The notes under the pieces are model-generated. The model saw nothing but the letters and a program-made list of their open reading frames with translations. It searched no databases and was not told where the DNA came from. DNA of 64,000 nucleotides, taken from assembly GCA_022821965.1 (NCBI GenBank), contig JAJECN010000002.1:124001-188000 (forward strand). Reading direction: 5' to 3'. The stretch is from Candidatus Poribacteria bacterium. GTDB taxonomy: Bacteria; Poribacteria; WGA-4E; WGA-3G. A program made the translations under genes and the position numbers. Positions 5,057 through 63,808 of the stretch are shown piece by piece. Positions within the stretch are counted from its first letter, which is position 1; each line of letters opens with the position of its first letter.

Positions 5057-5677
5057 ATGACAAAAGAAAAACGGCATCAGCTGCTTGCAATCGGATTCTT
5101 CGTATTTGGCATCATATTTCTTTATGTAGAGGGTATCTCACTGCTCCCACCGCGTATTACGCAAAATGCCATTCTATTGAAGGGCATCTCGTTGGTGCTG
5201 CTGAGTGTCGCAGCGATTCTTGCTGGTACCGCTTTCGAGAACAAACGACGGATTTCCGTTATATCTGGCGTAGGTTTAGCAATCGGTCTCGGATTCCTCT
5301 ATCTGCCTGTCCCCTCAATTTTACGCGGCTCAACTTTTCATCTACTTTTCGCTTGTGCTATTGCGTTCGGCATGACAACACCCGCGAAGCGTCCGGTAAG
5401 TATTATCTCAGCACTCTTTGCATGCGTCGGTATTGTTTTCCTTTACCAACCTTTCTCTTCATCACTTAATAGTACCGCCCTACACCTGCTTCTACCCGGA
5501 GTAACCGTTTTCTCGATTGTTTTTTCACAGAAAACCTTGTGTGAACAAATTTCTGTCGGCTTAATCGCGCTGGGCTTGATTGCACTCTGCCAACCCTTTC
5601 TAATACTGTTCTATCAAACAGGCTTTCAACTGTTACTTACGGGTTTAACAGGATTTATTGTCGCAGCACATCGTTAG
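5057..5677 (+). CDS. Membrane protein of four ~50-residue internal repeats
   Basis: A 206-residue, very hydrophobic protein. Four copies of a two-helix unit can be aligned by eye, with a recurring core of the type G-x-x-F-L-Y-x-P followed by H-L-L-L-x-G (residues ~8-55, 65-105, 110-150, 155-204), so about eight transmembrane helices. No known transporter motif is seen and the function is unknown. The SD is weak. The stop codon TAG (5675-5677) is the first base triplet of a MITE-like element, so the C-terminus may have been trimmed by its insertion. Confidence 0.7.
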   Translation: MTKEKRHQLLAIGFFVFGIIFLYVEGISLLPPRITQNAILLKGISLVLLSVAAILAGTAFENKRRISVISGVGLAIGLGFLYLPVPSILRGSTFHLLFACAIAFGMTTPAKRPVSIISALFACVGIVFLYQPFSSSLNSTALHLLLPGVTVFSIVFSQKTLCEQISVGLIALGLIALCQPFLILFYQTGFQLLLTGLTGFIVAAHR

Positions 5678-5833
5678 TAGTTATCAGTTGTCAGGGGGAA
5701 TAGTTGTCAGTTTTCAGTTCGATTTTTCTGCGAAAAACCTTTCAGTTTTCAGTAGTCGGCAGTTAAAGAGGGTTTCTGTGGTGGCTACAACAAACCGGAC
5801 TGTCACAAGGTGACTCTTAACTGAAAACTACTA
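5675..5833. mobile_element. MITE-like element, 159 bp, near-perfect terminal inverted repeats
   Basis: The ends TAGTAGTTATCAGTT (5675-5689) and AACTGAAAACTACTA (5819-5833) are inverted repeats matching at 14 of 15 positions. The interior contains repeated CAG[T]TTTCAGT units and the core AGAGGGTTTCTGTGG. Related copies lie near 58802, inside the gene at 59816-59902, and near 60725. There is no coding capacity, and I see no clear target duplication at this copy. Confidence 0.7.
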
Positions 5834-54500: not shown

Positions 54501-57431
54501 CTACTCTTCTGGAGTCTCTTCCTCCATTCGGGTGGCTCCGTTACTCTGCCAATCATCCGCCTTCTGCTTGAGTTTCTCAATGTCTTCAGGGTTCTTAATG
54601 TCTACAATGTGGGGTGTAATGATGATAACAATCTCAGTATCTTCGACTGCAGTTTCAGTACTTTTGAAGAGCCGACCAATCAACGGAATGTCACCTAAGA
54701 TCGGAAGTTTGTTCTCCACCTGCTTCTGCTTTTTACGGATGATACCACCGACAACAATCTGTTGACCGTCCTCGACATCAATGTAGACGCTGAGCGAATT
54801 ATCATCGGTAATAGGTGCGTTGAAGTCGGTAAACTCAATGAAGTTACTGGCACTGATGTTTGTAATATCCAACCCGATGGTACGCTTGCCATCCTCACCG
54901 ACTTGTGATTTCGCTATGTACGGCGTGAGTGAGATATTGATGCCCACAGGTGGATCGATGAAGTCGTAGTTGAAAAGCGGTTGTGAGACGGTCTCACCCA
55001 AGATGCTCGTGGTATCAACGCTCTGGAGATAGGGGATACGTCTGCCGCTACTCCACGTGGCAGCTCTGGAATCTCGTGTCAAAAGTGAGGGTGTTGAGAG
55101 GGTTTGTACCTTGTTCTCACGCATAAGCGTGTGGAGAAGTGCCATATACTCCTTAGTTGCCAAACCGAGGTTAAACCCTGATATTTCCTGATCAAGTCCG
55201 AGTTGTGCGTCAAGTTCTCCGATAAGTGGGTTTCCGGGTCTTGGAGATACACCGAAAATTTTGTTCTCTTGTGCCGTGAGTTCAATTCCAAGTTTAGTGG
55301 TCTCGTCAAGGGTGACTTCAAGAATTTGAATGTCGATCCAGACCTGGCCTCGGACGAAGTCTAACTCCTTAATGAGCGCCATGACATCGGGGAGGTATCG
55401 CTGTTGCGTTGTGATAATCAAGGAATTCGTGTCGGGATCCGCAAAGACGGTGACTTTTCCACGTAGGGAATTGATATCTTGCTGTTGCTGCCTTCCGCCA
55501 GAAGCAAAGAACGCTCTAAAACTGAAGCCCCCTTCTTCTTCACCTGCCCAAACCTGCTCAAGTACTAACTGGAGCTGCTCAGCACTGCCATACTCAAGTC
55601 GAATCGCCTTCGTAATTTCCTTCTGTCCTTCCGGCGTAGGAACATCCATGGAGTTGATAAACTCTGTGATGAGCTCGAAGTTGCGTTGCGTGGCGGTTGA
55701 GACGATGATAGCGTTGAGCGTCGGATAAGCCTCAGCAGTGACGTTACCCGCCAATGAACCCTGCGTTTGATTACGGTTACGTTCAGCAAGGAAAAAGAAG
55801 AAGTTCCCTGTGTTACTGGAGCTGCCTTGGTAGACGTTGTTGATGGTAGCCGCGACGTTCTCTGCGTCCGCGTATTGAAGTTTATACATGCGGGTACCCC
55901 ATTCCTGGTCCGGCATGTTGACATCAAGTCTTTTGATGAGTGCATCGATGGTTTCAAAGTTCTGGGAACTCGTTGATACGAGAATAGCGTTGAGGCGTAG
56001 ATCAGCAACGAGATGAACCTCGCCTTGGACCCCGAAACCAGCGTTTTCAGTCGGTTCCCGGTCCCGGCGGCGCCACCAAGGAACGTCCCTGTCTGCCCCT
56101 GCACTGCCGCCTTCAAAAAGGTCTTGCAGATTTGGAGTAAGGGTTTCAGCATCAGCAAACTTAAGAAAATAGAGTCTAATTTCTTCTTGCGTTTGCTCCT
56201 GGTCGAGTTCCTCTATGACCTTTTCAATGATAGAAAAGTTACGTGGATCGGAGGAGACAACGATAACGTTGAGCCGATCGTTGTGAGAGACGTTGACAGT
56301 GCCGACGATACCTTCTTGGTCAAGCCCCTGTTCGCGTCGCCAGTTCGTTAATTTTGCGCGATCCCAAGCGTCCATTCTGCGTCGGTTATCGCTACGCTCA
56401 CCGGTGAGTACTTCCTGGAGGGTTTGTGCAACATCCTCAGCGGCTGCGTATTGAAGCCTGAAAGTGCGAATCTGAGTTTGGGCGGTGGGTGAGACATCGA
56501 GATCCTTGATGATCTCTTGTAGGAATACCAAGTTTGCTTCAGAGGCTTTAAGGACGAGTGAATTGGAGTTGGGTTCCGGGATAATCTTGATAGTACCATC
56601 AAGAACTTCGTAGCCAATACCGTCAGCCTTCATCTGTTCCGCTGCGGCTCTCGCCTCTTCTGCAGTAATACGGGCACCACCGCTTTCAGGTTTACTTTCG
56701 TCGCGTCCTTCCCCTTGCTGCAAAGCACTTGTGAGTGCTTGTGCTAATGAATTGGCATCGGCATAAACCAGTGGGTAAATGAGAATCTTTAATGGGAATC
56801 TTTCACCTTCGTCAGCAACTTGTAGAATCGAGACGATTCGGCGTATATTGGAGGAGACATCGGTTATGACAAGAGCGTTTGTTCCGCTATCGGCGGAAAT
56901 ATGCGCCTGCTTGTTGAGCAGAGGCTTAAGGGCGTTTACCTGTTGTGAAGCAACAACATTCGTCAATCGAATGATGTAGGTTTGGATCTCATCAGTCATT
57001 TCAACGAGGTCAGGGTTCGGCGGAATGCTTTTAACAACACCTTTGGTCGCCAGCGCACGTGCAAAGGTTGTGACGAGGAGTGTACTATCGGTTCGAATGA
57101 GCGTGAGGTCATATTGTGTTAGGACAGTTTTGATTTTCTCAATGACTTCATCAAGAGTTACGTTTCTGAGATTAGTGAGTGCGAACCTTTTATCTTTTAT
57201 GTCTTCTTCACTTGCGATGATGGTGAGGTCAGCCTCTCGCGAGAGCCATTCCAAGAGTCCTTTAAGTTCTTGGCTTGTAAAGTTAAAGTCGAAACGGATT
57301 GCACGTCCCTGTTCGTCAGTTTCAGCGACACGCATTTCGGATTGCTGTTCCTGAGCATAGAGTTCAGCAAGCCCGAAAATGAGCAATCCTAAACAAAGTA
57401 ATGAAATAAATGAGAGCCTTTTTCTTCGCAT
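54501..57431 (-). CDS. gspD: Type II secretion secretin with six N-domain repeats
   Basis: A 976-residue outer-membrane secretin. Signal peptide (RLSFISLLCLGLLIFGLAELYA); an N0/STN-like domain (~47-125); six secretin N1-type repeats (~150-205, 215-312, 320-412, 415-503, 511-597, 604-692), each ending like NFxxIxxLIxxLD; then the beta-barrel secretin core (~695-945: VWIDIQILEVTL, STPSLLTRDSRAA, VGINISLTPYI, GQQIVVGGIIRKK, KLPILGDIPLIGRLFKS). Typical GspD proteins have two or three N repeats and ~650-750 residues. AAAGGA before ATG 57431. Last gene of the secretion operon. Confidence 0.92.
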   Translation of the reverse strand: MRRKRLSFISLLCLGLLIFGLAELYAQEQQSEMRVAETDEQGRAIRFDFNFTSQELKGLLEWLSREADLTIIASEEDIKDKRFALTNLRNVTLDEVIEKIKTVLTQYDLTLIRTDSTLLVTTFARALATKGVVKSIPPNPDLVEMTDEIQTYIIRLTNVVASQQVNALKPLLNKQAHISADSGTNALVITDVSSNIRRIVSILQVADEGERFPLKILIYPLVYADANSLAQALTSALQQGEGRDESKPESGGARITAEEARAAAEQMKADGIGYEVLDGTIKIIPEPNSNSLVLKASEANLVFLQEIIKDLDVSPTAQTQIRTFRLQYAAAEDVAQTLQEVLTGERSDNRRRMDAWDRAKLTNWRREQGLDQEGIVGTVNVSHNDRLNVIVVSSDPRNFSIIEKVIEELDQEQTQEEIRLYFLKFADAETLTPNLQDLFEGGSAGADRDVPWWRRRDREPTENAGFGVQGEVHLVADLRLNAILVSTSSQNFETIDALIKRLDVNMPDQEWGTRMYKLQYADAENVAATINNVYQGSSSNTGNFFFFLAERNRNQTQGSLAGNVTAEAYPTLNAIIVSTATQRNFELITEFINSMDVPTPEGQKEITKAIRLEYGSAEQLQLVLEQVWAGEEEGGFSFRAFFASGGRQQQQDINSLRGKVTVFADPDTNSLIITTQQRYLPDVMALIKELDFVRGQVWIDIQILEVTLDETTKLGIELTAQENKIFGVSPRPGNPLIGELDAQLGLDQEISGFNLGLATKEYMALLHTLMRENKVQTLSTPSLLTRDSRAATWSSGRRIPYLQSVDTTSILGETVSQPLFNYDFIDPPVGINISLTPYIAKSQVGEDGKRTIGLDITNISASNFIEFTDFNAPITDDNSLSVYIDVEDGQQIVVGGIIRKKQKQVENKLPILGDIPLIGRLFKSTETAVEDTEIVIIITPHIVDIKNPEDIEKLKQKADDWQSNGATRMEEETPEE

Positions 57432-57444
57432 AACATCCAATCCT

Positions 57445-58719
57445 TTAAAATATTCGAGCGATGAGGAAGATATCCACATTTAAATTTGTTGCGCCACGAT
57501 CTTCGGAATTCCGTCCGCGCCTCGCCGAACGCTCTGCTGTCTGCTTATCGGCAGAGATCCGCAAATCGCGCACCGTGAGCCATTTGGCGCCTGTTTCAAT
57601 GAGGTGATTTAAGTTAACCAGTTTTTCGAGATCTGTTTTGAATTTCATTTCAACTGTATAGTGTTCGGTTTGATACGTTAGGGGTGCTAACGCGAGCTGC
57701 TCTAAAAGTGTCGCGCGCCGTTGCTGAATTTGCTCAATATATTTGACAAGCGCGTATTGGAACTGATCTATATCCAACGACTCGTCGGTGTAAGCGTCTG
57801 GTGCCTGTGTGAGAATCTCTAAAAGAATACTGTCCGTTCGCAATTGGGTTTCGACAGTAGCAGGTTTTCCACCGATACCGAAGAAGCCCGGTGTAGCGGC
57901 AGTTCTGACTTTATGAACCTGTGTTTCAAAGAAGTCCTGTCTGGAATCTGCCGCGCCTCGAAGCTGCCGCGTCAGCATGCCCTTGATAACCGCTGCGAGC
58001 TTAATTCGGAGCGAGACTGGTATTACCTCTGGAAGCGAAGCGAATTCCCACTCCGCCGCAGCGTCTGCTGAATACATCCCCTCCTCCTTATTACTCGCGT
58101 GTTCTACTTTCTTTGTTTCAGACATTGAACTGTCTGTTTTATCTGATCCGGTATCTGTTTCATCTTCTGTCCCTGACAACCACGCATCCATTAGTGCATT
58201 GTATGCGTCGTCTTCCGACTCTTGTTCAACCATCTCTGTGAGTTCTGCTTCTTCCGTCTCTATATGTTTGAGATAATGATAGAGGACAAGATTCGCTCGG
58301 TTCTCCACCGTTAGTTTTTGCGTTTGCTTAACGGTTCCGGGTTTCGTGAGAAGTTGATAATTTTGCTGAATACCAGCACGTCTGACGAGTGCATCAATAC
58401 GGGATCTAATGACGGTCTCTGGAAGTTCGGTGTCAAAGAGTGTAGCGGCGCGTTGTGTATTCGCACGCGCCTGTTGATTCGATGCAGATGCTAATCCCGT
58501 TTCCTTGTAAATCTCGGATTCGACAGGTTTGAGCACTTCGGCAGCACGCACCAAATCTTCAGTCTTTAACAACTGCTCCTGCTTCGCCTTAGCGTCTTGA
58601 TTCGCAAATAAGCGATAGAAGGCAGGCCCGCCCTGTATCGCGAGTAAAATCAGGAGCAATCCTCCCAAGATACCAAGCAATATTCGGCTCCGTGGCGTTA
58701 ATTGGAGATCCAGTTCCAT
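57445..58719 (-). CDS. GspM/PilO-like inner-membrane secretion component
   Basis: A 424-residue bitopic protein: one N-terminal membrane helix (ILLGILGGLLLILLAIQGG), then a periplasmic helical and ferredoxin-like region, with a highly acidic linker (~150-215). Position between the PilM/PilN fusion and the secretin, and the late segment QTEHYTVEMKFKTDLEKLVNLNHLIET (PilO-like), fit GspM/PilO, which couples the cytoplasmic platform to the secretin. Its stop is 13 nt before the secretin start. Assignment rests on position and architecture. Confidence 0.72.
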   Translation of the reverse strand: MELDLQLTPRSRILLGILGGLLLILLAIQGGPAFYRLFANQDAKAKQEQLLKTEDLVRAAEVLKPVESEIYKETGLASASNQQARANTQRAATLFDTELPETVIRSRIDALVRRAGIQQNYQLLTKPGTVKQTQKLTVENRANLVLYHYLKHIETEEAELTEMVEQESEDDAYNALMDAWLSGTEDETDTGSDKTDSSMSETKKVEHASNKEEGMYSADAAAEWEFASLPEVIPVSLRIKLAAVIKGMLTRQLRGAADSRQDFFETQVHKVRTAATPGFFGIGGKPATVETQLRTDSILLEILTQAPDAYTDESLDIDQFQYALVKYIEQIQQRRATLLEQLALAPLTYQTEHYTVEMKFKTDLEKLVNLNHLIETGAKWLTVRDLRISADKQTAERSARRGRNSEDRGATNLNVDIFLIARIF

Positions 58720-58801
58720 AAGTCAATCCTTTTGAAACGCAAAACCGTTATCCGGTTAAGAGTGGGGCGCGCCTGAAAAGCACACCAGGGAAAATTTACA
58801 C

Positions 58802-58887
58802 AAAAGAGGCTATCAGCCGTCAGCCGTCAGTAAAAGAGGTTTCTGATTAAATCAACGCTTCTTTACTGATTGCTGATAGCCTTTCTT
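58802..58887. mobile_element. MITE-like repeat between GspM-like and PilM/PilN genes
   Basis: AAAAGAGGCTATCAGC (58802-58817) and GCTGATAGCCTTTCTT (58872-58887) are inverted repeats matching at 14 of 16. The core GTCAGTAAAAGAGGTTTCTG is shared with the copy near 60725 and related to 5675-5833. Confidence 0.6.
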
Positions 58888-58909
58888 GCCGATGGTTTCC
58901 GCCAGCCAT

Positions 58910-60715
58910 TTATTCGTTTTTCTCGTCTTCAAGAGTTTCCGTCATAGGCGGTGAAAGACGCAGTTCTGTATCCATTTCTGGTTCATCAATTTGTATTTTG
59001 GGCATCGGGTAGCGTTTTTTAGCGAATGTTTTGATAGCGGAGGCTGTTAGGTTACACCGCACTTGTACTTGAAAAATCTCTTTCCTATTCTGGGTAATCG
59101 TTGTGACCTCACCGGGCCGAACATTAGTGAACACTCCGGAACGATCAAGTGCGCCCAAGAGCGTATTGATGGCGTTATGAGAAGCACTTTCCAAATTGAA
59201 TGTAATGCGCGCTGTCGTCGGTTCGTGAAGGTTCGTGATATTGAAATTGGTCCAGGCAACCTGTGTTCTGTCTCCAAACATCTCGCTGAGAGCATGTAAA
59301 ATATCGAGTGGTGAGATGTGATGCGCTAACATGTCAGTAAGTGCCAATTCTCTTCCAAGTTGTGCTTGCGCGGCAGCCATCGGTTGTGCGTAATGTGTAA
59401 GCTGCGCCTCAACGGCTTCGTTTCTATGTTTTTGTGCGCGTTGGAGCGTATAACCACCGAAAAAGATTCCGCCGACCAATAAGATGCCCAATCCAGCGGC
59501 AGCTAAAAGTTGACGTTGCCGTGTTGTCTGTGTGAGTGTTTCAACTGCCTCTTGCGGCAATAGGGAAACCTGAGGTCCCGGTTTCAGCGCATTGAGTCCA
59601 ACACCCAAAGGAACGGCAAGCGTATCACCCCACTCGTCCAGAAGATGTTCTACCCCCGGATGAAGAGGACGGATGTCAATATCTGCCTGCTGTTGGAGTG
59701 TGTGAAGTGGATTCCATAATTGTGTCGGAATGTCAAGTTCTGTTTCACAGACGGATGCAAGGTCCCGGACACGAGCACCCTCACCACACAGCCAGAGTTC
59801 GGTTTCCGCTTCTGCTGAATGGTTATCGGTTAAAGAGTCTCCCGTGGCAGCCACAGAACCCTCTTGTAACTGATCACTGGTAACTGATGACTGACGACTA
59901 TTCGATTCACCATGTGCAGTGGCAGCAGCAATAGAACGTTGAAGTTCCCCGATAAACTGCGTTGTCCACGTAGATGCCGGAGCCTCGCTTGCAGAGATGT
60001 GCTGTTTCTCCTGTGCCGCCGCCTCAATATCTATATTCAAGGTGCTGCTAATATGTTCAGAGAGATGATTACTGCCGAGTCGGAAACTACGTGAAAAGCG
60101 GAGTTCCTGACTCTCCATGAAACAGAAATCTGTTTGTTCCGCACCTATATCAACAATGAACGTAGACTTTGTGCATCCGCTGTTGGCTGCGACTTCCGAG
60201 AGGGCTATCATCGACGGTGTGACACCCGACGCGGAAACGCCAATTTGTTCAAGGAGATCCAAATAACCTGTAACCGTCGCACGCCGTGTGGATACTAATT
60301 CTACAGAGGTGGCTTCTGAGGTCCGCTGCACATCGTGATACGTAAAGATTGCTTCTTCAATTCGGAAAGGGAGTTCCGCTTCTGCAGCGATGGCGACGAT
60401 GCTCGCGAGCTGTTCATCGCCTGCAGCCGGCAAATTCGCTAAGCGTTTTGTATTCACCAAGAATCGCGGCAACGCAAGAACAACTTCCGTACTATCCCGG
60501 TTGAACAGTGAACGGAGGTTTCCTTGTACCGGAGAGTCCCCAACAGATTCCCAAAGACGTTTCACCGATTCAGCGACCTGCTGTTGGTCATCTTTGTCCG
60601 GATACGTCACAACATTTGCGTTGATGAGATGCACTGCCCCAGATGACTGCTCAAGCTGAACCATTTTGGCTCTATTTGTGCCAATGTCTATCGCTATGAC
60701 TCGATTTTTTGCCAT
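58910..60715 (-). CDS. Fused PilM-PilN (GspL-like) secretion platform protein
   Basis: A 601-residue protein. Residues 1-~380 form an actin-like PilM domain (VIAIDIGTNRAKMVQLE, FIVDIGAEQTDFCFM, LAVPLGVGLNALK). A membrane helix (LLAAAGLGILLVGGIFFGGYTL, ~407-428) and a PilN-like periplasmic part follow (LDILHALSEMFGDRTQVAWTNFNI). This is the organisation of GspL. Residues ~272-300 (S/T/Q-rich, NSRQSSVTSDQLQEGSV) are encoded by a copy of the MITE-like repeat, in frame. It anchors the secretion ATPase in known systems. Confidence 0.85.
   Translation of the reverse strand: MAKNRVIAIDIGTNRAKMVQLEQSSGAVHLINANVVTYPDKDDQQQVAESVKRLWESVGDSPVQGNLRSLFNRDSTEVVLALPRFLVNTKRLANLPAAGDEQLASIVAIAAEAELPFRIEEAIFTYHDVQRTSEATSVELVSTRRATVTGYLDLLEQIGVSASGVTPSMIALSEVAANSGCTKSTFIVDIGAEQTDFCFMESQELRFSRSFRLGSNHLSEHISSTLNIDIEAAAQEKQHISASEAPASTWTTQFIGELQRSIAAATAHGESNSRQSSVTSDQLQEGSVAATGDSLTDNHSAEAETELWLCGEGARVRDLASVCETELDIPTQLWNPLHTLQQQADIDIRPLHPGVEHLLDEWGDTLAVPLGVGLNALKPGPQVSLLPQEAVETLTQTTRQRQLLAAAGLGILLVGGIFFGGYTLQRAQKHRNEAVEAQLTHYAQPMAAAQAQLGRELALTDMLAHHISPLDILHALSEMFGDRTQVAWTNFNITNLHEPTTARITFNLESASHNAINTLLGALDRSGVFTNVRPGEVTTITQNRKEIFQVQVRCNLTASAIKTFAKKRYPMPKIQIDEPEMDTELRLSPPMTETLEDEKNE
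59816..59902 (-). repeat. In-frame copy of the MITE-like repeat inside the PilM/PilN gene
   Basis: On the coding strand, CAGTTACAAGAGGGTTCTGT, then GGCTGCCACG, then GACTCTTTAACCGATAACC, matching the core of the 5675-5833 element (CAGTTAAAGAGGGTTTCTGT, GGTGGCTAC, GACTCTTAACTGAAAAC). The 87 bp equals 29 codons, so the frame is kept. Confidence 0.65.
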
Positions 60716-60724
60716 TTTTTATTT

Positions 60725-60860
60725 GCTGTCGGCTATCGGCTATCGGCTGTCAGTAAGAGGGTTTCGAGTAAGTCAAATCTCTCTTTACCGATGGTTTTCA
60801 ATGGCTGATACCTACCTGCCACTCCCTCTAAGTGCCGACAGAAACTGACTGCCGGCAACC
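60725..60860. mobile_element. MITE-like repeat upstream of the PilM/PilN gene
   Basis: Contains GGCTATCGGCTATCGGCTGTC, the core GTCAGTAAGAGGGTTTCGAG and CTCTCTTTACCGATGG, paralleling the 58802 copy, and CCGACAGAAACTGACTGCCGG at its right end. Fills the 155-nt gap between gspK and the PilM/PilN gene. Confidence 0.55.
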
Positions 60861-60870
60861 ATTAAGTTAT

Positions 60871-62457
60871 CTAATCTTGTAGCCAATACTTTACAATTAT
60901 CTGATCACCCGTCCGGTCAATGACACCAACACAAGTGGAGATAACTCTGTTTGCGGTATCAACACCGTTTGCCTCAATGCGATAGCCGTGTGAACGGTAA
61001 GTTACCGAATCAACGACTTCACGGAAGGTTTCAAAGTTAATATCCTCTAATTGCGACAGTTCGGAGATGCGAGTGAACGGATTCCCTTTTATCTCCTCTT
61101 CAGTAAAACTTTGTACCTGTGAGGTGTCGGGTGCGTCTTCTTCGCGGCGTTCGACAATTGCTTGTGCTTTTTGTGGATCCATTCCCGGTAGTAGTGCTAA
61201 TATCTCAGGTGGTGCCGTGTTTATGTTGATGAGACCTTCGCGGATGTCCCCCTCTTTTAGTGTTATTTTGTCAATAATACCGATGAATTCCTGCTGCGTC
61301 AACATCTTCACATCTTTGATTGCATCAATGTTCTGGAAAAGCCCCTGTGAATCACGATGATCAACGATGCGTTCAGCAATGCCTTCATCAACACCCTGCA
61401 AAGATTGCAAGGTTTCTACATCGGCGGTATTGATATTAACTTGCCCACTTTCTCCCTGTGGTTGTTGTGCCTGCCCTTGCCCCGGTGGCCCATTTCCTTC
61501 TGGGGCATTGGTTTCTTCCTCTTCATTCGTTTCCCCACCGGCATCTTCTGTGGTAAGTTGGTCTTGTATGTTGTTAAAAAGTTCGTCAGAAACTGCTTGC
61601 ACATCCAGGAGTGAAGCGAACCTGTCAAAATCTCGTTGCTGGATAAGCGATTCCGCTTCCGCTTGCGAGAAAACAGACTGGTTTTGCTGTGTGTTAATTT
61701 GTGTCAGTTCATTTGCATCAGCCGTATTGACATCGACAAGCGGTTCCCCGTCCGGATCCGTGCTGGCATCAACCGAATAAATAGTAGTTAAATCAACAAG
61801 TCCCGGTGGTGTGTCCGCTGACGTTGCTTGTGGGCTGCTAAAGCCTGCCGTTGAGGGACCTTCAGCCGTCCCCGTGGCTGTCGGTTGCACACTCGCACTG
61901 TTTTGTGCAAACGTCCCAGTTTGTTGTGCCCCGTAGAGAAGTTCAGATGTCATCCCTTCGACCCGTGCAAGGTCACGAACAGTGCGGTAGGGTCGCCCCT
62001 CCACAATTCTGTTGGCAAGTTCTTGAACGAACGCTTCATCTGATGTAGTGCCCACCTGCATGAGTAAATTATTGATGAGGTCTACATCGACAGTGTTGAT
62101 ATTAACCTTTGATGCCTCGTCTGTAATTGTCACAGAATAGTTTAAGAAATTGCCAACCTGAATTCCATCTTCAACTTGTCCTTGGATGGGTTCAGCCCAA
62201 GTTTCACCGAGCGAATCGAAAGGGGTCTGGTCTGCACGCACGACAGCAAGCGTCCACTCAAAGCCGGCTCTTGCGGCGTAGTGAAACTTCGCCCTGTCCA
62301 AAAAATTCCGCTGCGTCCGCTGTTCTATATGAATCGAGTAAAGCAGCTGCGCCGCGAGAACAGAGAGTATAGTAAGTATCCAGAGGGTTGAGACGAGGGA
62401 TAGCCCGGCCTGCTCCTCGTGGAATGCGCGGAAACCCCGCGTTCTAAATAGCGTCAT
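60871..62457 (-). CDS. gspK: GspK-like minor pseudopilin with four helix-hairpin-helix segments
   Basis: A 528-residue protein. N-terminal pseudopilin helix (GLSLVSTLWILTILSVLAAQLLYSI, residues ~18-42) with a GspK-type E-Q-A-G processing region. Four V-N-I-N-T-A-type motifs, each starting a helix-hairpin-helix (~117-122, 241-246, 340-345, 410-415), separated by a Gln/Gly/Pro-rich linker (~305-337). GspK normally has about 320 residues and one such region. It caps the pseudopilus tip in T2SS. Positioned between gspJ and the PilM/PilN gene. Confidence 0.87.
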   Translation of the reverse strand: MTLFRTRGFRAFHEEQAGLSLVSTLWILTILSVLAAQLLYSIHIEQRTQRNFLDRAKFHYAARAGFEWTLAVVRADQTPFDSLGETWAEPIQGQVEDGIQVGNFLNYSVTITDEASKVNINTVDVDLINNLLMQVGTTSDEAFVQELANRIVEGRPYRTVRDLARVEGMTSELLYGAQQTGTFAQNSASVQPTATGTAEGPSTAGFSSPQATSADTPPGLVDLTTIYSVDASTDPDGEPLVDVNTADANELTQINTQQNQSVFSQAEAESLIQQRDFDRFASLLDVQAVSDELFNNIQDQLTTEDAGGETNEEEETNAPEGNGPPGQGQAQQPQGESGQVNINTADVETLQSLQGVDEGIAERIVDHRDSQGLFQNIDAIKDVKMLTQQEFIGIIDKITLKEGDIREGLININTAPPEILALLPGMDPQKAQAIVERREEDAPDTSQVQSFTEEEIKGNPFTRISELSQLEDINFETFREVVDSVTYRSHGYRIEANGVDTANRVISTCVGVIDRTGDQIIVKYWLQD

Positions 62458-62469
62458 CTGTAGACTCCC

Positions 62470-63375
62470 CTAAGGTCTACCTCCTGCTCCACCGCCAGCA
62501 GTAGCACTTACTGGAAGATACACCATCGTTGATTGGGTCATACCAATTGACTGTGCTGTCGGCTGCCCCTGTGTCGTGAGTTGTGCTGTATTTGTACTTA
62601 CAGGTGCCTGTGACTCTCCTTGGGCAGTTATCAGGATCTGTACAGCACTCGGAAGACTCTCCGCATCATCCCATGAGGTTCTCCAAGCTTCCGCTTCACC
62701 ATCAAAATACTTTAAATCAAAACTGATAAGCCCAGCAATGAGCGTCGAAATATCGACATAAATCGGTTCCCCATTTTCGTCCGTTTGTGGGACCTCACCC
62801 GTCTGTAGAAAAGGACCGATAACAGTTTCAGGATCAAGCGTTGTTGTTCTCACACGAAAGAGGGCAAGCTCACCCTCTTGTTGATCCATAGTATCGCCCG
62901 TAAATGCCTCTTGAAAGTTCGCGGAACCCAAGTTGGATTCATTGGGCATCGGTTCAGGTCCGACGAAGTAAGCCACACGCTGCACATCACTTGCAAGCGG
63001 TATGGAAGGCTGCGAGGAGGACTGTGCTTGGAAACTTCCAAGTTGCTCCAAAAAGGGGTCTGGATCTGTCCTGACAAGCGTGACGAAACTGAGCATATCC
63101 CTATCCCCTAATTGGCTCGGTCCATCTTGGGTGTAGATGGCAAGTTCTGGTTCCTCAAGTGAGACTTGCATGTTTCGGAGATCCGTTACAAGCCGATCCA
63201 TCGCGACCCGACTCCTTTGTACCGCCAATATTCTTGCCTCCGTCCGATGATACGCATCTACAGCTGTTTTGAAAGCAAAATATGCAGATCCCCCAATAAT
63301 GACGAGGATACTGACTGCCATGAGCATTTCAACGAGTGTAAATCCACTCTCGGTGCGAATTCCTTTAGTCTTCAT
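62470..63375 (-). CDS. gspJ: GspJ-like minor pseudopilin
   Basis: A 301-residue prepilin-like protein. Start MKTKGIRTESGFTLVEML (AGGT six bases upstream) gives a standard G-F-T-L-V-E cleavage and methylation site followed by the helix LMAVSILVIIGGSAYFAF. C-terminal beta domain, ending in a Gly-rich tail. Size and order (after gspI, before gspK) fit GspJ. 13 nt after the gspI stop. Confidence 0.85.
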   Translation of the reverse strand: MKTKGIRTESGFTLVEMLMAVSILVIIGGSAYFAFKTAVDAYHRTEARILAVQRSRVAMDRLVTDLRNMQVSLEEPELAIYTQDGPSQLGDRDMLSFVTLVRTDPDPFLEQLGSFQAQSSSQPSIPLASDVQRVAYFVGPEPMPNESNLGSANFQEAFTGDTMDQQEGELALFRVRTTTLDPETVIGPFLQTGEVPQTDENGEPIYVDISTLIAGLISFDLKYFDGEAEAWRTSWDDAESLPSAVQILITAQGESQAPVSTNTAQLTTQGQPTAQSIGMTQSTMVYLPVSATAGGGAGGRP

Positions 63376-63388
63376 TTTTACCTGATAA

Positions 63389-63808
63389 CTATCCCTGCTG
63401 TGCTTGTGGCATCTGTCGGTCCGCAATATAGGTACTCATAGACATTGAGTTCTCTCTGTTTCTATGCAGCCATGTGACGGTCACTTGAACCCGACGGACG
63501 TTTTCAACGTCTTCAGAGTCCACATCCTCAACGACAGAACTCCAACGATAGCGTGTATTCTCACCAAATTCACCAGTTTGTTCACCAACATCGGGATAAC
63601 CTTCCATCTCAATTTCTGCCATCCGAAATTTGAGGAGGTAAAGTGCAGTAGTGCTGTTATCTGAAAGTCCTTGATTGCGTGCAGCGGTCGTAAACGCCTG
63701 CAAAAGTGCGGGCAAGATCGCCGCCAAAATTGTTAATGTTACAAGTATCTCAACGAGCGTAAAGCCGTCTTTTTCTTTTGATCTTGAGTGTATAATTGAT
63801 AAATTCAT
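63389..63808 (-). CDS. gspI: GspI-like minor pseudopilin
   Basis: A 139-residue prepilin-like protein with processing site DGFTLVEI and helix LVTLTILAAILPALLQAF. The GspI-like pattern of a short beta domain with MAEIEMEGYPDVGEQTGEF follows. Weak SD (GGAAG). It lies between partial gspH and gspJ. A PilV-type role is the alternative. Confidence 0.85.
   Translation of the reverse strand: MNLSIIHSRSKEKDGFTLVEILVTLTILAAILPALLQAFTTAARNQGLSDNSTTALYLLKFRMAEIEMEGYPDVGEQTGEFGENTRYRWSSVVEDVDSEDVENVRRVQVTVTWLHRNRENSMSMSTYIADRQMPQAQQG

Follow-up and report, generated by a model that had tools for sequence, protein, structure and literature searches.

How a dispersed repeat comes to lie within the reading frame of a secretion-system gene is the question raised by a 64-kb stretch of DNA (the window), which lies on contig C27 of a genome of 5.69 Mb whose named relatives are all Candidatus Poribacteria, a sponge-associated phylum. 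The host gene (58910..60715, minus strand) encodes a PilM-type actin-like protein of 601 aa with Pfam matches to PilM_2 (E=1.9e-19, residues 9-266) and FtsA (E=1.3e-8, residues 187-336). Its setting is a type II secretion / type IV pilus cluster, the neighbouring genes on the same strand encoding a secretin (six Secretin_N and one Secretin match, 54501..57479), T2SS protein K (T2SSK and HHH_3, 60871..62457) and two prepilin-like proteins (N_methyl, 62470..63808), all identified by Pfam matches. The initial annotation had described the host protein as a PilM/PilN fusion; the PilM part is borne out by the PilM_2 and FtsA matches and the PilN part is not, as these are its only Pfam matches, and a fusion is plausible from the length of the protein and a predicted helix at residues 388-420.

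A palindromic element copy in the pilM reading frame

A repeat had been placed in frame within pilM at 59816-59902, a range of 29 codons (NSRQSSVTSDQLQEGSVAATGDSLTDNHS) covering about residues 272-300 of the protein, and a repeat is indeed present there, its limits now being refined to an 85 bp palindromic element copy at 59818..59902 on the minus strand. This copy reads AATAGTCGTCAGTCATCAGTTACCAGTGATCAGTTACAAGAGGGTTCTGTGGCTGCCACGGGAGACTCTTTAACCGATAACCATT on the coding strand (59902-59818) and has ends AATAGT / CCATT, the canonical element ends being AATAGT...ACTATT. When positions 59780-59940 were compared with their own genome by blastn, 47 matches were obtained at E<=10. The best non-self matches had E values of 9e-19 (83% over 84 bp), 6e-18 (89% over 65 bp), 3e-16 and 5e-16; identities of 85% (72 bp) and 88% (64 bp) are also among the best. 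The top match (83% over 84 bp) lies itself within a gene, that encoding NadB, and the closest intergenic copies in this genome have an identity of 82-89% over 64-78 bp. Judged by these alignments, the similarity of the pilM repeat to other loci is well beyond chance.

The pilM copy is an eroded palindrome with a folding z of only -1.1, and a stable secondary structure was rejected since folding was no better than that of shuffled sequences. In an AlphaFold model of PilM, which is weak overall (mean pLDDT 50.5) and was used for the linker alone, residues 268-302 form a coil with pLDDT of about 23-27 between a helix at 247-275 and a strand at 306-310. The repeat-coded peptide is hydrophilic and is probably disordered.

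Three other members of the family were observed in the window, all of them intergenic. A superfamily member downstream of pilM (58801..58888, minus strand) has heptad arms, an inverted repeat and a folding z of -3.7, the member upstream of the pilM start (60722..60815, minus strand) has heptad arms and a AAGAGGGTTTC core, and a longer member at 5675..5833 (plus strand) has an additional inner hairpin (CGATTTTTCTGCGAAAAACC) besides its heptad arms. The heptad arms and an AAGAGG core are common to these copies (at 5675, 58802 and 60725) and the pilM copy. Smith-Waterman z scores against the pilM element, calculated from dinucleotide shuffles, were 5.1 for the copy at 5675, 3.7 for that at 58802 and 4.6 for that at 60725, and the score at 5675 was exceeded by at least one of 300 shuffles. 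As similarity confined to the window was marginal, genome-wide matches were used instead. The suggestion that the repeat at 5675-5833 is the same as the pilM insert holds for family membership and not for sameness, this being a distant member only; the relationship in a comparison of the four window copies is likewise marginal alone, and the close relatives are found at other places in the genome. Two further copies do flank pilM as had been noted, and they have no special status, both spots differing in the two nearest relatives: 60722-60815 is occupied by a different sequence in G001 and G008, and 58801-58888 by another family member in the same two genomes. Variation of both intergenic spots beside pilM among the nearest relatives represents fast turnover of intergenic copies.

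Distribution of the PilM insert among relatives

The PilM protein was detected in 59 of 60 relatives and its repeat-coded linker only in G000, G001 and G008 (94% identical), and when the 38 genus genomes were all searched with the peptide, PilM contained the stretch in these three only. In the 24 other genus genomes inspected the PilM linker is unrelated, shorter and without DNA similarity to the repeat, confirming the expectation that residues 272-300 would be missing from related homologues. In the nearest outgroup, G017 (83%), the linker is unrelated and 12 residues shorter, corresponding to a net gain of +36 nt (12 codons). At the DNA level about 45 nt of unrelated linker in the outgroup compares with about 80 nt of repeat in the window, indicating loss or overwriting of the old linker. 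In a 36-genome tree, constructed from PilM, NadB and CarA with linker columns removed, the PilM insert is one change. On the basis of these comparisons the PilM gain is recent and is more than a plain extension. The element-free linkers of PilM and NadB share no sequence with the element-bearing ones, so that insertion plus deletion is indistinguishable from replacement.

Architecture and distribution of the element

Between an AATAGT and an ACTATT end, the element has a core (TTACAAGAGGGTTTCTGTGGCTGCCACAGGAGACTCTTTAAC) with (YRTCAGT)n heptads as its left arm and (CGATAAC/TGAAAAC)n heptads as its right arm. When 39 other copies were lined up, a core of TTACAAGAGG(G) was followed by CTCTT(T)AAC, right-arm heptads and ACTATT. 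Many copies have AATAGT...ACTATT ends and inverted heptad arms, mostly with a length of about 83-140 bp. Copy counts derive from searches and are approximate: the heptad-triplet pattern TCAGTNNTCAGTNNTCAG (TCAGTNN type) occurs 110 times in the window genome as against 8 for a reversed control, and a profile search at E<=0.001 gave matches in 37 of the 38 genus genomes, with 31 in that of the window, one to three matches in each of five sister-genus genomes and zero matches in other families. The distribution of heptad triplets across genomes resembles that of the profile matches. Of 40 DNA matches examined in the window genome, four lie within clear long genes and most of the others outside long ORFs.

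Other sequences are associated with some of the compared sites. Where the window genome has a heptad element, L225, L227 and L231 have intergenic repeats of a second family unrelated to it (TTACCTTGCGGTCA...CAACCGGGTTT...), and at L217 / L240 (G008) a copy of the element encloses a hairpin of another kind (TTTAACCATCAACTCG...CGAGTTGATGGTTAAA).

Comparison of orthologous intergenic sites in four genomes revealed swapped cores between fixed flanks and changes in heptad number. One site in G001 has a deletion leaving the remnant AAGTAGTTA, one in G008 has a nested hairpin, and another palindromic family is present at one of the compared sites. Core exchange, heptad changes, deletion and the nested hairpin together indicate that recombination or turnover among copies is frequent. 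No target-site duplication or clean empty site was found when the joined flanks of six intergenic copies were searched in three relatives. With regard to the features expected of a MITE, the element has inverted ends, and neither a target-site duplication nor an autonomous partner was found; no mobilising enzyme emerged from a search that included the four Y1 transposase genes of the window genome. Mobilisation by a RAYT was rejected as a candidate, the four Y1_Tnp loci being without flanking heptad arrays within about 1.5 kb, with the sole exception of L092, where a one-sided heptad cluster lies several hundred bases from a Y1_Tnp gene.

The element is present in frame in unrelated proteins

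A tblastn search with PilM residues 266-301 matched another G017 gene, identified as NadB. In-ORF copies were sought with a 27-residue peptide query and then with a profile of 11 peptides (A1), and 44 distinct copies were obtained in the genus, encoding the near-identical peptide NSxQSSVISGQLQxGSVxxTxxSLTDNRKLKTDNYS. These copies are distributed over at least eight recognisable protein families besides PilM and are mostly at linkers. The pilM insert is not a lone case: many unrelated genes of the genus, overlooked in the initial annotation, carry the same element in the same frame. Hosts named from Pfam matches include NadB (FAD_binding_2 and Succ_DH_flav_C), CarA (CPSase_sm_chain and GATase), a PD40/Omp85 protein, penicillin-binding proteins, Reg_prop propeller proteins, DUF4159, C25 peptidase and A2M, and several long host proteins are without any Pfam match. 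The long-gene hosts found by DNA search of the window genome are PilM, NadB, the PD40/Omp85 protein and a very long unnamed protein.

NadB contains the element in frame in eight genomes (L055, L126-L130 and L156-L163; G000, G001, G008, G017 and G029, G006, G020, G014). The insert separates the FAD-binding domain from the C-terminal one and is found in two separate clades, requiring three changes on the tree. For CarA, 12 of 30 aligned genomes have a short element-free linker of about 9 residues (YAWQHQENNNVDPKYRVVALDFG type), and in the remaining aligned sequences a full-length or decayed element-like peptide is present between the N-terminal and glutaminase domains, a position which in a solved relative is the linker to the glutaminase domain. 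The termini AATAGT/ACTATT and the core are common to the NadB and CarA copies at the DNA level. In the four genomes closest to that of the window, CarA and NadB had a single match each, and the element-bearing copy therefore appears to be the only one; this single-copy state suggests that the host protein would stay functional with the peptide. In-frame copies are also present in genomes of 1 to 3 contigs (G005, G009 and G017), making an assembly artefact unlikely.

One very long ORF, L146 (G007:C59:80856-83948), presumably TamB-like, has three in-frame element copies, and L133, an ORF related to it, has no Pfam match. Penicillin-binding proteins contain the element in two genomes at two sites, at residues 501-537 of L141, within the transpeptidase domain, and at residues 121-154 of L144, before the transglycosylase domain.

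The element is open in one reading frame

Among the 44 in-ORF copies, a set found with a profile of the host reading frame and hence selected for that frame, the host frame has 0 stops, the +1 and +2 sense frames are open in 0% and the antisense frames in 0-5%, with stops in the closed sense frames mostly located in the right half of the element. The four long-gene copies from the DNA search of the window genome have the same orientation and peptide frame. An array of TCAGTTA heptads encodes LSVISYQ in every frame and an array of TAACTGA has stops in all three (MacGregor 2015, PMC4679880). Read on the TCAGTTA strand, the left arm of the element is free of stop codons, and the right arm, of TAACTGA type, is stop-free in one frame in the subfamily concerned, so that one reading out of six allows entry into a gene without truncation. 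The host frame is also open in some close intergenic copies (L003), and several others are without an open sense frame, as expected where there is no coding constraint.

Origin of the pilM insert

It is very probable that the pilM insert is a copy of a non-autonomous palindromic Poribacteria element with one open frame, carried as a tolerated linker passenger. The gain in PilM occurred once, in the ancestor shared by the three genomes, the new linker taking the place of the old one and being about 12 residues longer. Inserts hitting an open frame in a flexible inter-domain linker would survive purifying selection and others would be lost, the PilM peptide presumably being kept because it is tolerated and not for a function. 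The repeat had been called exapted, and no result favours gained function over tolerance; tolerated insertion of selfish DNA in flexible linkers is the simplest reading. True exaptation, in which a longer flexible tether is useful to PilM (and to NadB and CarA) and is positively selected, would be consistent with retention of the frame in three PilM and eight NadB orthologues, with the remnants, either full-length or decayed, seen in many CarA genes and with recurrence at linkers of conserved proteins. However, the CarA element decays freely in sequence and length with the frame kept, the DNA of intergenic copies is of the same kind and most PilM homologues are without the insert, and we regard this explanation as improbable. 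Convergence of low-complexity Ser/Thr/Gln/Asn linkers with no mobile repeat involved is extremely unlikely: such linkers are compositionally biased, and those of PilM and NadB are hypervariable, but coding and intergenic DNA of one genome are 82-89% identical, with E values down to 6e-18, and termini and core are common to NadB and CarA as DNA. This identity rules out convergence for PilM, NadB and CarA, and convergence is possible for the weakest, decayed copies.

A rather unlikely account is that the element-bearing linker spread by gene conversion or transfer of gene pieces and not by fresh transposition into each gene. The three changes and two clades of NadB are in its favour, as is the exchange of cores at orthologous intergenic spots. 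In addition, a CTATAGAA flank beside the element is the same in both NadB clades and matches element-free relatives of one clade only, and this common flank suggests that a NadB gene piece moved with its element between clades. The host genes are otherwise unrelated, however, and the penicillin-binding protein family has the element at two sites, so that de novo insertion is needed too. More tentatively, and with less than even probability, the element itself may have evolved for translation, as a heptamer palindrome whose stop-prone arm was cleared in one frame and which colonises inter-domain linkers of conserved single-copy enzymes genus-wide, spreading standard linker modules among unrelated proteins outside Rickettsiales.

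Relation to known repeats

According to reviews, Rickettsia palindromic elements (RPEs) are in-frame palindromes in many Rickettsia genes, each with a conserved peptide, and guanylate kinase, one tested enzyme, is active despite an RPE insert (PMC10969869, PMC2229807). The same descriptions present RPEs and Wolbachia repeats (Ogata et al. 2000, 2002, 2005, per PMC10969869, PMC2229807, PMC3733652) as dispersed palindromes of about 100-150 bp with inverted ends, located intergenically and in frame in unrelated conserved genes with a conserved peptide, in all of which they are like the Poribacteria element. The latter differs in belonging to another phylum with genomes of 4-7 Mb and in its TCAGTTA/TAACTGA heptad arms of variable number. 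An RPE proper requires Rickettsia, which excludes an element whose named relatives are all Candidatus Poribacteria. The features of a protein-coding palindrome are present, namely inverted ends, intergenic and genic copies and an in-frame peptide in unrelated conserved genes, and the Rickettsia/Wolbachia type is the closest kind known, likened by behaviour and description and not by RPE sequences.

The TAACTGA / TCAGTTA repeats of Beggiatoaceae, Cyanobacteria and Bacteroidetes (MacGregor 2015, PMC4679880) have the same heptamer as the element arms, which contain direct repeats of TAACTGA or its complement, and the likeness extends to one orientation being stop-free and the other having stops in all frames. 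In those groups the heptamers occur for the most part as simple direct repeats ahead of start codons and rarely in ORFs, then usually at the ends of proteins (PMC4679880), whereas the Poribacteria element lies inside conserved enzymes, is palindromic with the heptamer in both orientations, and has a conserved core and a right arm stop-free in one frame. ERIC, Correia/NEMIS, YPAL and the RU-3 MITE (Delihas, PMC2229807) are also small inverted repeats with ORFs and in-frame gene fusions, and are set apart by description, many of their fusions being new or hypothetical proteins and not internal inserts in conserved enzymes. REP/RAYT (Y1) systems resemble the element in their short dispersed palindromes, and four Y1_Tnp genes are present in the genome, but these are without flanking copies. 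REPs carry GTAG/CGTC tags. Literature on Poribacteria combined with palindromic, repeat/transposable or miniature inverted elements gave no account of the element in titles and abstracts.

Rickettsia and Wolbachia, intracellular bacteria with small genomes, are the best-known hosts of palindromic elements lying in frame within conserved genes. The present data join two literatures, on TAACTGA heptamer repeats and on protein-coding palindromes, and the filled, decayed and empty sites over about 38 genomes make the birth and decay of a linker traceable. Behaviour of this kind by a different repeat in Poribacteria, which have large genomes and are associated with sponges, would demonstrate a recurrent route of selfish DNA into proteins.
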